Made by a program: the position numbers and the translations under genes | The notes under the pieces: generated by a model | Seen by the model: only the letters and a program-made list of their open reading frames with translations | Told to the model about the DNA's origin: nothing | Databases searched by the model: none | DNA from: Elusimicrobiota bacterium | Lineage (GTDB): Bacteria; Elusimicrobiota; Elusimicrobia; Elusimicrobiales; UBA9959 | Assembly: GCA_026388125.1 (NCBI GenBank) | Contig: JAPLKJ010000274.1 | Coordinates: forward strand, 1 to 32,372 | Reading direction: 5' to 3' | DNA length: 32,372 bases | In this document: one piece after another, positions 2,923 through 31,632 of the stretch | Position numbering within the stretch: the stretch's first letter is position 1 | Layout of the letters: each line of letters begins with the position of its first letter

Positions 2923-3915
2923 CTATTTTTTCCGCAGGGACAGGAAAAGGGAGTACAGGCCTTTCGCGGCGCGGCGCTGGCCGGCGGAGTTAAGATGCCC
3001 GCCGTCGCTGGTATAGTCCGCGCAGAGCCCGCCGCAGTCGGCGCCGTCCGGTGACCAGGCTTCTATGTCCGCCAGGTCGAAGAGAACTTTCCGGTTGGCG
3101 GCGGTCCACGTCCTGAGGCCTTCGTTAAAAGACCGCCGTTTGAGCGCTGCCGGACCGTTCTGCCGGGCCAAAGGCATGGTGACATAGATAAAGACCGTCC
3201 CCGGATATTCTTTCTCCAGGTCCGACATGGACGAAAGATATTCGGAAAGCCCCGCGTCCTGGTCGATAAAACAGAATTTGGTCATTACTGCCTGGACCGC
3301 AGGGGCGTGCCAGCCGCCGCGCACGCGCCGCCCGAAATCGTCTATTTTCTCGGACCAGCCGGGGTTGCCGCGGTTAACGTGATATATGACGCCGTGTCCC
3401 GGCCTGCCCGGGGCGGAACCGCCGGCCGCCGCCACGCTGAGCGGGAATTTCGCGGGCTGCGCGGCGTGAAGAGCGGCCATGCCCGAAATTATATTGTCGC
3501 CCACCGAGGCGTGCGCGAAGAAAGCGGAAAGGGCGGCGAGTTTTTTTATTTCCGCGGCTGACGCGCCGTCTATGGCGCTGAAATTTACGTGATCCACCGC
3601 TGCCGGCCGGGTTTTGCGTGAGCGGCGCCGTTTCGCGGATACGGGCGCGTCCGCGGCTGTTTCCTGCTGCGCTGCGGCGCCGGGGTCTCCCGTGAGGGCC
3701 GCCCGGCAAGTTCCTGAAAGTTTCGAACGATGGCCATTGATGCACTCAGCTACTCTCCCTCCTCCGGCCTCTATGCCGGCGCAGAATTCCTCACGCTCGG
3801 CGGTGCAGGCGCTCCACCAGTCGCCGCCGGGGCCGGAGCCGGCTGCCACCGGCCGCGGCGCAAGCCAGGCGGCGCATACTAAAATCCCCAGCAGCCGCAG
3901 GTGTGGTGATCTCAT
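2923..3915 (-). CDS. Secreted SGNH-hydrolase-like protein with N-terminal Cys-rich (GLG1-type) repeat
   Basis: A 330-residue protein counted from the ATG at 3915. A signal peptide spans about residues 1-25 (ends PVAAG). One Cys-rich repeat of the GLG1/Cys_rich_FGFR type follows, with C37, C45, C58 and C70 and the EFCAGIE...GGGRVAEC pattern. After a basic linker (KRRRSRK), an SGNH-like domain begins at about 130: AHASVGDNI suggests Ser137 as nucleophile, and D304-G-G-H307 near the C-terminus fits the catalytic D-x-x-H. This predicts an exported esterase or deacetylase of unknown substrate. I chose ATG 3915 over TTG 3924 because a TATAAT box lies 8 nt upstream of it. First gene of a minus-strand unit. 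Confidence 0.75.
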   Translation of the reverse strand: MRSPHLRLLGILVCAAWLAPRPVAAGSGPGGDWWSACTAEREEFCAGIEAGGGRVAECINGHRSKLSGTCRAALTGDPGAAAQQETAADAPVSAKRRRSRKTRPAAVDHVNFSAIDGASAAEIKKLAALSAFFAHASVGDNIISGMAALHAAQPAKFPLSVAAAGGSAPGRPGHGVIYHVNRGNPGWSEKIDDFGRRVRGGWHAPAVQAVMTKFCFIDQDAGLSEYLSSMSDLEKEYPGTVFIYVTMPLARQNGPAALKRRSFNEGLRTWTAANRKVLFDLADIEAWSPDGADCGGLCADYTSDGGHLNSAGQRRAAKGLYSLFLSLRKK

Positions 3916-15670: not shown

Positions 15671-16057
15671 ATGGTTTGCAATATAATCCTTTATGTACGG
15701 GACCAGGCGCGCAGCAGGGACTTTTACGCCCTGGCGCTCGCTCTGGCCCCGCAGCTTGACGTTCCCGGCATGACCGAGTTCGGGCTTTCCGCCGCCTGCG
15801 TGCTGGGGCTGATGCCGGAAAAAGGCATAAAAAGGCTGCTGCCGGGCATGCCTGACCCGGAGGCCGCCGCTGGCATACCGCGCGCCGAGGTATATCTTAC
15901 GGTCCCCGACCCCGCCGCGTTCCACGCGAGGGCGCTGGCGGCCGGCGCCACAGAGCTGAGCCCGCTGGCTCCGCGCGGCTGGGGGCATGAGGCGGCCTAC
16001 AGCCTGGACCCGGACGGCCATGTGCTGGCCTTCGCGCGGGCGATAGCGGAACGATAA
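15671..16057 (+). CDS. VOC-superfamily (glyoxalase/dioxygenase fold) protein
   Basis: A 128-residue protein with the paired beta-alpha-beta-beta-beta layout of the vicinal oxygen chelate fold. It begins NIILYVRDQARSRDFY, the usual first strand and helix. A second half starts at about 75 (EVYLTVPDPAAFHARALAAGA) and ends YSLDPDGHVLAFA, the standard DPDGH strand. Members include glyoxalases, dioxygenases and drug-binding proteins; the substrate is unknown. It lies just upstream of the ribosomal protein promoter with no terminator visible between them. Confidence 0.85.
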   Translation: MVCNIILYVRDQARSRDFYALALALAPQLDVPGMTEFGLSAACVLGLMPEKGIKRLLPGMPDPEAAAGIPRAEVYLTVPDPAAFHARALAAGATELSPLAPRGWGHEAAYSLDPDGHVLAFARAIAER

Positions 16058-16066
16058 AAATAGCGC

Positions 16067-16095
16067 TTTACATAATTTCAGCGTTTTGTTATAAT
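16067..16095 (+). promoter_or_regulatory. Main promoter of the ribosomal protein block
   Basis: TTTACA (16067-16072), 17-nt spacer, perfect TATAAT (16090-16095). It is the best promoter upstream of rplC and only 10 nt after the VOC-fold gene. Transcription should start near 16102, giving a leader of about 305 nt. Confidence 0.75.
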
Positions 16096-16101
16096 TAATC
16101 C

Positions 16102-16406
16102 GTACTAACTGCGGCAACGCCGCGGTTTCTTTGAAAAGAAGTTTTTATTTTACGCTGTCGCGTTCTTCGGAATACGGGCAGCGGCCCTATAGATGAAGCG
16201 GCCTTGATTTCCCTTCACCTGCGGGCTTAATCATAGAAACTAAAAATATTGTTTTGTTTAACCGGAACAGGAAATGTTCCGGAGCGGCCTGTTCGCCGTT
16301 TTTTCGGCCGCGCGGTACGCCCGTCGTTAACGACGGGATGTCTCCGCCGGTGCGGACCCGAACGGCGCAGTTTGGCGATCGAGAGGACAGTCAAGGAGCG
16401 GATCGT
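16102..16406 (+). promoter_or_regulatory. Structured 5' leader of the rplC operon, candidate r-protein or attenuation element
   Basis: This 349-nt gap (16058-16406) holds no convincing gene. The leader has at least four hairpins. H1 is a 9-bp stem, AACTGCGGC (16107-16115) with GCCGCGGTT (16119-16127), followed by TCTTTG. H2 is CCGGAACA (16262-16269) with TGTTCCGG (16275-16282), perfect. H3 lies at 16283-16300 and is followed by T-residues to 16304; an alternative pairing joins GCGGCC (16284-16289) with GGCCGC (16306-16311). H4 is CCCGTCG (16320-16326), loop TTAA, CGACGGG (16331-16337). H1 and H3 resemble weak terminators. A purine-rich tract and AAGGAG (16393-16398) follow. In E. coli the S10 leader is regulated by L4; a similar role here is inference. 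Confidence 0.6.
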
Positions 16407-17192
16407 ATGACAGAAGAAAACACAACACCCGCAGCCGCCGAGGCAAAGCCCGCGGCGCAGGAAATGCCCAAGAACCATAAATTTCTCGTCGGCCAGAAAA
16501 TGGGCATGACGCAGATCTTCGGCGCGGACGGTTCGCTTTACGGCGTGACCGTGGTGAAGGCCGGCCCGTGCCGCGTAGCCTATACCCGCACCAAAGAGAA
16601 AGACGGCTACCAGGCCGTCTGCCTGGGTTTCGGCCACAAGAAAGAGCAGCGCGCCAACGCGGCCGAGAAAGGCCTCGCGAAAAAGCTCGCCGCCGCGCCG
16701 CTCCAGCACCTTAAGGAATTCCGCGTCAACGACCTCGCCGGGGCCGCTCAGGGCCAGATAGCCGGCGTGGAACGGTTCGCCGAGGGCGAATACGTGGACC
16801 TGCAGGGCGTCTCCAAGGGCAAGGGTTTTGCCGGCGGCATGAAGCGCCATCACTTCGCCGGCGGTCCCGCTTCGCGCGGCGCCTCCGACAGGGAAAGGGC
16901 GCCGGGTTCGCTGGGTTCGCGCCGCTCGCTCGGGCGCGTTCTGCCCGGCCAGCGCATGGCGGGCCACATGGGCGACGTTACCGTGTCCGTCCAGAAGATG
17001 AAGGTCATAAAGATAATTGCCGAAGACAACCTGCTGCTGATCAACGGCGGCATCCCGGGCGCGGCCGGCAGCATGGTATACGTCATCAGCACCGTGAAGA
17101 AGGTCCCCAAACCCCCCGCGGCGGTCACGGGCAAGAAAGCCAAGAAAGAAGCCGCCAAGCCCGCGGCCAAGAAGCCGGCCGCTAAGAAATAA
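16407..17192 (+). CDS. rplC: 50S ribosomal protein L3
   Basis: L3 binds 23S rRNA early in assembly and lies near the peptidyl transferase centre. The core from HKFLVGQKMGMTQIF to VYVI is typical, including KGFAGGMKRHHFAGGPASRG and RAPGSLGSRRSLGRVLPGQ. Relative to the usual roughly 210 residues it has about 24 extra at the N-terminus (MTEENTTPAAAEAK...) and a Lys/Ala/Pro tail of about 30, giving 261. ATG 16407 is set by AAGGAG 8 nt upstream; an in-frame start at 16254 would lie in the structured leader and is rejected. First gene of the block; rpsJ is not upstream. Confidence 0.96.
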   Translation: MTEENTTPAAAEAKPAAQEMPKNHKFLVGQKMGMTQIFGADGSLYGVTVVKAGPCRVAYTRTKEKDGYQAVCLGFGHKKEQRANAAEKGLAKKLAAAPLQHLKEFRVNDLAGAAQGQIAGVERFAEGEYVDLQGVSKGKGFAGGMKRHHFAGGPASRGASDRERAPGSLGSRRSLGRVLPGQRMAGHMGDVTVSVQKMKVIKIIAEDNLLLINGGIPGAAGSMVYVISTVKKVPKPPAAVTGKKAKKEAAKPAAKKPAAKK

Positions 17193-30654: not shown

Positions 30655-31632
30655 ATGGCCACTTTCACTAAACAGCTGGTAATTCCCGAGATGCTCAGCG
30701 TCGAGGATAAGTCGAAAACGGAGAACTACTCCAAGTTCACCGCCGAGCCTTACGAAAAAGGCTACGGGCACACGATCGGCAACTCACTGCGCCGCATCCT
30801 GCTCTCCAGCCTCGACGGCGCGGCCGTGGTGGCCGTGCGCATAAAAGGCGCCAGGCACGAATACGCCGCCATCAACGGCGTGCAGGAGGACGTGGTCAAC
30901 ATCGTCCTGAACCTGAAGAAGCTGCGCGTGCGGCTCAAGGGCGAAGGGCCCGAGACCGTCCTGATCTCCGTTAAGGGGAAAAAGGAAGTGAAGGCCTCCG
31001 ACATCCGCGAGAACGCCAACGTCGAGATAATCAATAAAGATCTGGTGATCGCGCACGTAGAATCCGGCGCCGAGTTCGAAGCCGAGCTCGAGATCTCCAG
31101 CGGGGCCGGCTACCTGACCTCGGAAGAGATCCGCGGCCGCATGAACCTGCCGGCCGACTTCATCCCGATGGACGCCATTTTCTCCCCGATACAGAAAGTC
31201 CACTATACGGTAGAGAACGCCCGCGTGGGCCAGCGCACCGACTACGACAAGCTCGTGCTCGAGGTCTGGACCGACGGCACGCTCAGCCCGTCCGACGCGG
31301 TGAGCCGCACGGCCGCGCTGCTGCGCCGCTCGATAATGCCGTTCCTGCCGCCCGAAGAGTCGGCCAAGGAGCCCGCCAAGGCGAGCGAATCCGCCAAGAC
31401 CGAAGCCGGCGGGGAACTGACCGGCAAGCTCGACCAGGGCGTGGACATGATAGAGCTTTCTTCGCGCGCCTCCAACTGCCTTAAAGTGGCGGGCATCCGC
31501 ACGATAGGCGAGCTGGTGAGGAAGTCGGAAGGCGACCTGCTGGCCGTAAAGAATTTCGGGCAGAAGTCCCTCGACGAGATCAAGGACAAGCTCAAGGAAA
31601 TGGGCCTCGACCTCGGGATGAAGATAGACTAA
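30655..31632 (+). CDS. rpoA: RNA polymerase alpha subunit
   Basis: The N-terminal assembly domain spans about residues 1-230 (GYGHTIGNSLRRILLSSLDGAAV, NLPADFIPMDAIFSPIQKVHYTVEN). A flexible linker rich in Ala/Glu/Lys follows (about 233-262), then the C-terminal DNA-binding domain (about 265-325). The C-domain keeps the UP-element-contacting residues: Arg and Asn in SSRASNCLK, and Gly and Lys in NFGQKSLDEIKDKL. The 325-residue length is normal. The gap from rpsD is 15 nt. Confidence 0.98.
   Translation: MATFTKQLVIPEMLSVEDKSKTENYSKFTAEPYEKGYGHTIGNSLRRILLSSLDGAAVVAVRIKGARHEYAAINGVQEDVVNIVLNLKKLRVRLKGEGPETVLISVKGKKEVKASDIRENANVEIINKDLVIAHVESGAEFEAELEISSGAGYLTSEEIRGRMNLPADFIPMDAIFSPIQKVHYTVENARVGQRTDYDKLVLEVWTDGTLSPSDAVSRTAALLRRSIMPFLPPEESAKEPAKASESAKTEAGGELTGKLDQGVDMIELSSRASNCLKVAGIRTIGELVRKSEGDLLAVKNFGQKSLDEIKDKLKEMGLDLGMKID

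Follow-up and report, generated by a model that had tools for sequence, protein, structure and literature searches.

How the ribosomal-protein genes of the Elusimicrobiota are regulated when their operon begins at rplC, with no rpsJ ahead of it, and what the long leader RNA preceding that gene might contribute, are the questions raised by this locus. The window, the whole stretch of 32,372 nucleotides analysed here, is an entire contig of an Elusimicrobiota genome (G000:C137), with positions below counted from its first letter. On its plus strand, Pfam and NCBIfam profiles identify from 16407 onwards, leaving out a few short genes in between, rplC, rplD, rplW, rplB, rpsS, rplV, rpsC, rplP, rpsQ, rplN, rplX, rplE, rpsH, rplF, rplR, rpsE, rplO, secY, adk, map, rpsM, rpsK, rpsD and rpoA. 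Genes of the S10, spc and alpha type thus reach at least rpoA, which ends at 31632, in an operon of ~15 kb. The upstream neighbour of the leader codes for a glyoxalase-family protein, and the rplC product shares 98% identity with its counterpart in an uncultured Elusimicrobia MAG. A single match to the promoter consensus at 11 of 12 positions was detected on the plus strand between 16040 and 16420, and its -10 region is found again 5' of the conserved RNA motif described below in other genera. As a separate observation, the conserved core of L3 is preceded by an N-terminal extension of ~20-70 residues in which E, A, P and Q abound (16407-16490 and relatives), both in the GTDB family holding the motif (f1) and in a related family (f2).

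The leader folds at -118.3 kcal/mol, as against -102.7 +/- 6.0 kcal/mol in 100 dinucleotide shuffles (z = -2.6). A search of the leader and the window against Rfam 15 recovered no family at the gathering threshold, nor any at E<=10, and the open-access literature yielded no ribosomal leader or riboswitch of such a kind for the Elusimicrobia. When the regions upstream of rplC in relatives are compared, conservation proves much higher over the leader's initial ~145 nt, with a mean column identity of 89%, than over the remainder. This initial part displays a conserved architecture, namely a hairpin, P0, followed by a junction that is closed by P1 and bears P2 and P3 (Table 1). An earlier note on this DNA had proposed that the rplC operon has a structured leader particular to its lineage, which is borne out by the ~305-nt untranslated region with its compensatory changes in relatives and its lack of an Rfam match; hairpins are likewise present at 16109-16125, 16262-16282, 16284-16311 and 16320-16337. 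It had, however, described a leader with terminator-like hairpins, whereas the conserved part is a three-way junction at 16140-16241 that is absent from that note.

Table 1. Coordinates of the features of the rplC leader and its surroundings in the window
Feature	Position	Strand	Basis
Promoter TTTACA - 17 nt - TATAAT, extended -10 TG	16067..16095	+	11/12 consensus match
5' untranslated leader of rplC, ~305 nt	16102..16406	+	predicted start site, ~7 nt past the -10
P0, GC-rich hairpin CUGCGGC-AAC-GCCGCGG	16109..16125	+	directly 5' of boxA-like element
boxA-like element GGUUUCUUUGAAAAG (CGGUUUCUUUGAAAA)	16124..16138	+	resembles spacer boxA; PWM
Three-way junction RNA, P1-P3 (models R1/R2)	16139..16242	+	covariance model, covariation
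P1 5' strand AGUUUUUAU	16140..16148	+	pairs with 16233-16241
P2 hairpin CGCUGUC-G-CGUUC..GAAUACGGGCAGCG	16153..16183	+	pairs with double changes
P3 hairpin GCCCUAUAGAUGAAGCGGCCUUGAUUUCCCUUCACCUGCGGGC	16184..16226	+	double changes, pairing
P1 3' strand AUAGAAACU	16233..16241	+	pairs with 16140-16148
H3 hairpin CCGGAACA/UGUUCCGG	16262..16282	+	fold; CCGG..CCGG arms kept across g1
H4 hairpin GCGGCC/GGCCGC, U-rich loop	16284..16311	+	changes in step in relatives
H5 hairpin CCCGUCGUU/AACGACGGG	16320..16337	+	fold; g1 only
Shine-Dalgarno AAGGAG	16393..16398	+	sequence; also in g1 relatives
rplC (L3), first operon gene	16407..17192	+	start ATG 16407; Pfam, NCBIfam

The junction is carried by strong covariation. 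In an alignment of 33 distinct sequences that was fitted to the model, and whose pair counts thus lean towards it, 98.4% of the cells over 35 pairs are paired, as opposed to only 46-52% when the partners are slid by 1-3 columns. Double changes affect 12 of the 35 junction pairs, with 0 of 500 shuffles reaching such values. On a tree of the L3 protein we counted 34 compensatory events. Sliding the partners by 1-3 columns left 1-3 such events, and random re-pairing gave 1.85 on average (maximum 11). Under a stricter tree-based null, in which substitutions are moved between columns, no single pair attains E<0.05 (lowest E 0.2), because all the sequences come from one family; under the same null, structural pairs make up five of the eight top-scoring among 6105 pairs. 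Compensatory changes in stems conserved among relatives, which the earlier note had named as one check of its proposal, are therefore present. P3 shows double changes in 5 of its 14 pairs with 99.8% of cells paired, the apex of P2 (GCGUUC/GAAUACGG) is almost invariant, and the strands of P1 take the form UGUUUUUAU/AUAAAAACA in other genera. RNAalifold prefers in genus g1 an alternative P1, in which GUUUCUUUGA at 16125-16134 pairs with UCAUAGAAAC; this was rejected, as the other genera keep the pairing of 16140-16148 with 16233-16241. In a g6 locus (L174), 3' of the motif, the U-rich stretch before rplC includes GUUUCUAUGA, which is fully complementary to the P1 3' strand UCAUAGAAAC and could possibly form an alternative helix with it. 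Leaders bound by ribosomal proteins frequently, though not of necessity, imitate the site of the protein on rRNA. Comparison of the junction with 16S and 23S rRNA, in one run with one SSU copy read in the reverse direction and in another on both strands, gave no sequence similarity beyond that of shuffled sequences, the best matches falling within the shuffles.

A covariance model of P1-P3 (R1) detects the motif in 30 of 248 genomes of the phylum. A second model (R2), whose training sequences are mostly among the genomes it recovers, recovers it from 46 of the 341 Elusimicrobiota genomes searched, every one a member of family f1, whose bacteria are mostly uncultured, and distributed over 7 genera: 30 of the 32 g1 genomes along with members of g3, g5, g6, g10, g12 and g13, those of g5 being weak (E about 1e-6). 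No match to R2 was obtained in g2, g4, g11, g14, g78, g79 or other families, in a set of partly incomplete genomes and with strict filters. Each match whose neighbourhood was read lies just upstream of rplC. Strong matches number one per genome across the 341 genomes; two weak extra matches, in G028 and G015, overlap open reading frames, the stronger of them pairs badly, and both were set aside as chance matches.

The absence of rpsJ before rplC, observed in the earlier note, was confirmed; in this genome the gene resides on another contig, C85. In family f2, rpsJ lies directly 5' of rplC and the motif is absent, while genus g13 reads tuf, rpsJ, promoter, motif, rplC, the last four of them adjacent. 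In other f1 genera rpsJ is often encoded on the contig of the motif, 2-66 kb upstream (about 2 kb in G269, about 9 kb in G116 and about 66 kb in G018), or otherwise on separate contigs. Hence, the missing rpsJ reflects the split of an ancestral rpsJ-rplC neighbourhood. Three further observations concern this neighbourhood. On C85 (5355 bases; L081, L082), partial rpsJ matches at 3-218 and 3525-3725 flank transposase-like genes, IS21-like by eye, an arrangement due to an insertion, a duplication or an assembly artefact. In g14 (L217 of G153, ~1690-2210) a terminator-like hairpin follows rpsJ, and rplC has a promoter of its own and a long leader, A/T-rich and containing CUUUUGA, in which no junction is recognisable. 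In g7, a genus of f2 (L124-L130), the gap between rpsJ and rplC shares a common stretch, GTGCAGAAAACACAAGAACTCTGCATCAGTAAAA..GGTGACGCAGTAA, that is possibly another structured RNA.

The second conserved element precedes the junction. Situated 3' of the GC-rich hairpin, CGGUUUCUUUGAAAA differs little from CGGUUCUUUGAAAA, the boxA that the same genus has in its 16S-23S spacer; boxA is the type of site that is bound by NusB-S10. The element reads UUUCUUUGAAAA in g1, UCUCUUUGAAAA in g13 and g6, and is of the AUCUUUGAAA type in g12. The rRNA operons of the family carry GCUCUCUAAAAAA or GUUCUCUGAAAAA before 16S and CGGUUCUUUGAAAAUUC or CCGUUCUUUGACAAUU in the 16S-23S spacer, sites that we call boxA from their position and the known consensus GYTCTTTAANA (PMC5725501). 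Scored with a position weight matrix of these rrn sites against shuffles preserving base composition only, the leader element reaches p<=0.008 in g1, g13 and g6 and <=0.02 in g12; it scores poorly in g3 and g10, and is poor by eye in g5. P0 itself is conserved in g1 with one-sided changes only, and different hairpins, read by eye, occupy its position in other genera. The genome has 8 exact sites for TTCTTTGAMAA, of which the leader element is one, and 5 for the same pattern read backwards; the other seven exact sites have no comparable leader context and mostly lie inside reading frames. No rRNA operon was found in the assembly of the leader's own genome. NusB is encoded in it (PF01029, E 3.4e-33; L254, G000:C1:16656-17033), with one in-frame TAG. 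Precedents for Nus-factor sites outside rRNA operons include the boxA near rpsJ in gammaproteobacteria and suhB, which is repressed by Nus factors (PMC5725501).

On balance, we lean towards the view that the leader is a two-module cis-acting regulatory RNA, consisting of a boxA site and a junction, of the fused S10-spc-alpha operon. From +8 to +37 of the predicted transcript, a GC hairpin followed by the boxA-like element would be arranged like the boxB-boxA of rRNA antitermination sites. The putative boxA would load NusB-S10 on the polymerase and so allow processive transcription of the ~15-kb operon, keeping pace with that of rRNA; alternatively, the operon might be repressed via the NusB-S10 complex. 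From +38 to +141, a ribosomal protein that the operon encodes would, when in surplus, bind to the junction and thereby lower expression. L4 regulates the S10 operon of E. coli, and for this reason L4 is our first guess for the ligand, purely by precedent; the earlier note had put forward L3 or L4. The idea of protein feedback draws on the position of the junction, its single copy per genome and the precedent of its class: position and covariation are the criteria by which ribosomal-protein leaders have been called (PMC7247131), and the junction displays both. We would suggest, with considerable reserve, that two inputs converge on the operon, with S10 (NusE, together with NusB) acting at boxA while a second protein, encoded in the operon, acts at the junction. 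Even after rpsJ had left the operon, S10 would then still coordinate the operon's other ribosomal genes with rRNA synthesis, by way of the same Nus signal.

The alternative that fares best dispenses with the first module: the leader would be purely a ribosomal-protein leader whose junction binds L4, L3, L23 or L2, with the likeness to boxA a by-product of an A/U-rich linker. The single copy before rplC wherever checked, the strong covariation of the junction and the weakness of the boxA-like element in g3 and g10 all favour this; against it, four genera have CUUUGAAA at this same position, with p<=0.02 against the rrn boxA profile, and scores elsewhere in the leader are usually lower, so we regard this possibility as credible but doubtful. 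The converse proposal, in which regulation enters through boxA, as in suhB, and the junction serves just to fold or protect the RNA, could appeal to the boxA in the leader, the presence of NusB and the precedents of suhB and the site near rpsJ (PMC5725501); it is improbable, given that no other part is as conserved as the junction, which is retained in g3 and g10 despite a degenerate boxA. A small-molecule riboswitch placed on a ribosomal operon might account for the very high sequence conservation of the P2 and P3 loops and the internal loops, and is more improbable still in view of the lack of an Rfam match and of the one strong copy per genome before rplC, with none preceding metabolic or transport genes in the R2 search of 341 genomes.

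The less conserved remainder of the leader bears on how the two modules might act on expression. The arms of H3 are also seen by eye in most other genera, and H5 reads CCCGGC..ACCGGG in g1 relatives. The earlier note had taken hairpins followed by U runs as terminator-like; a scan of 16040-16420 on both strands found 0 intrinsic-terminator-like sites (0.8 expected from shuffles). The U-rich 16126-16132 belongs to the boxA-like element, only ~25-35 nt past the predicted start site; near 16304, the U run falls within the loop of H4. GCGGCC occurs three times in the leader (16181, 16198 and 16284) and GGCCGC once (16306); the mutually exclusive alternative between them that had been envisaged is not conserved, because in relatives 16284 and 16306 turn jointly into GCGGUU/AACCGC, whereas the copy of GCGGCC at 16198 is invariant across the genus. 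Despite several stable hairpins and U-rich stretches, an attenuator of the kind first proposed, with an intrinsic terminator and exclusive hairpins, is thus the least probable explanation by our estimate, there being no terminator-like site in the leader, a first U stretch that comes ahead of any transcribed sensor, and an exclusive pairing that relatives do not retain. Since no terminator is found, the output of the favoured two-module RNA would more likely be translational, or depend on Rho-dependent polarity, than be intrinsic attenuation. Over 24 leaders the pairing probability of the Shine-Dalgarno ranges from 0.18 to 0.92, and no conserved partner for it was seen among them. A pairing of the P3 loop with it (CCUUG-CAAGG), suggestive in g1 and g12, was discarded as other genera do not retain it, as was an upstream leader peptide, whose ATG in AUAGAUGAAG becomes ACG in relatives.

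Several known systems resemble the leader in part. The S10-operon leader of E. coli, which responds to L4, is likewise a long structured 5' untranslated region of an operon with rplC, rplD, rplW and rplB, but it precedes rpsJ; the Elusimicrobiota leader precedes rplC, with rpsJ elsewhere or, in g13, just 5', and has neither an Rfam match nor a terminator-like hairpin. The L4 leader of the Archaeoglobi also precedes rplC, rplD, rplW and rplB, with its ligand assigned by precedent (PMC7247131, Table 1); it is archaeal, and is set apart from the window, which matches no Rfam family, by the Rfam search rather than by direct alignment. Like the rrn boxB-boxA sites and the suhB boxA, the leader has a hairpin that leads into a boxA of the CUUUGAAAA type, such as this genus also carries in its spacer; here, however, the putative boxA stands before ribosomal-protein genes with a three-way junction 3' of it. 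The gammaproteobacterial boxA near rpsJ (PMC5725501) similarly lies in the leader of a ribosomal-protein gene, but in another phylum, whereas ours precedes rplC, has rpsJ outside the unit and is accompanied by a conserved junction RNA.

The best reading of the leader is a ribosomal-protein leader class new to description, combined with a Nus-factor site of the rrn type. A phylum for which our literature searches found no ribosomal leader described thereby gains an RNA family with good support, and the leader accompanies the break-up of the rpsJ-rplC neighbourhood. The leader RNA probably helps set the amount of ribosome made. If boxA works here, the synthesis of rRNA and that of ribosomal proteins would be linked through one Nus-factor signal, which would bear on how the two are kept in balance, a question of long standing.
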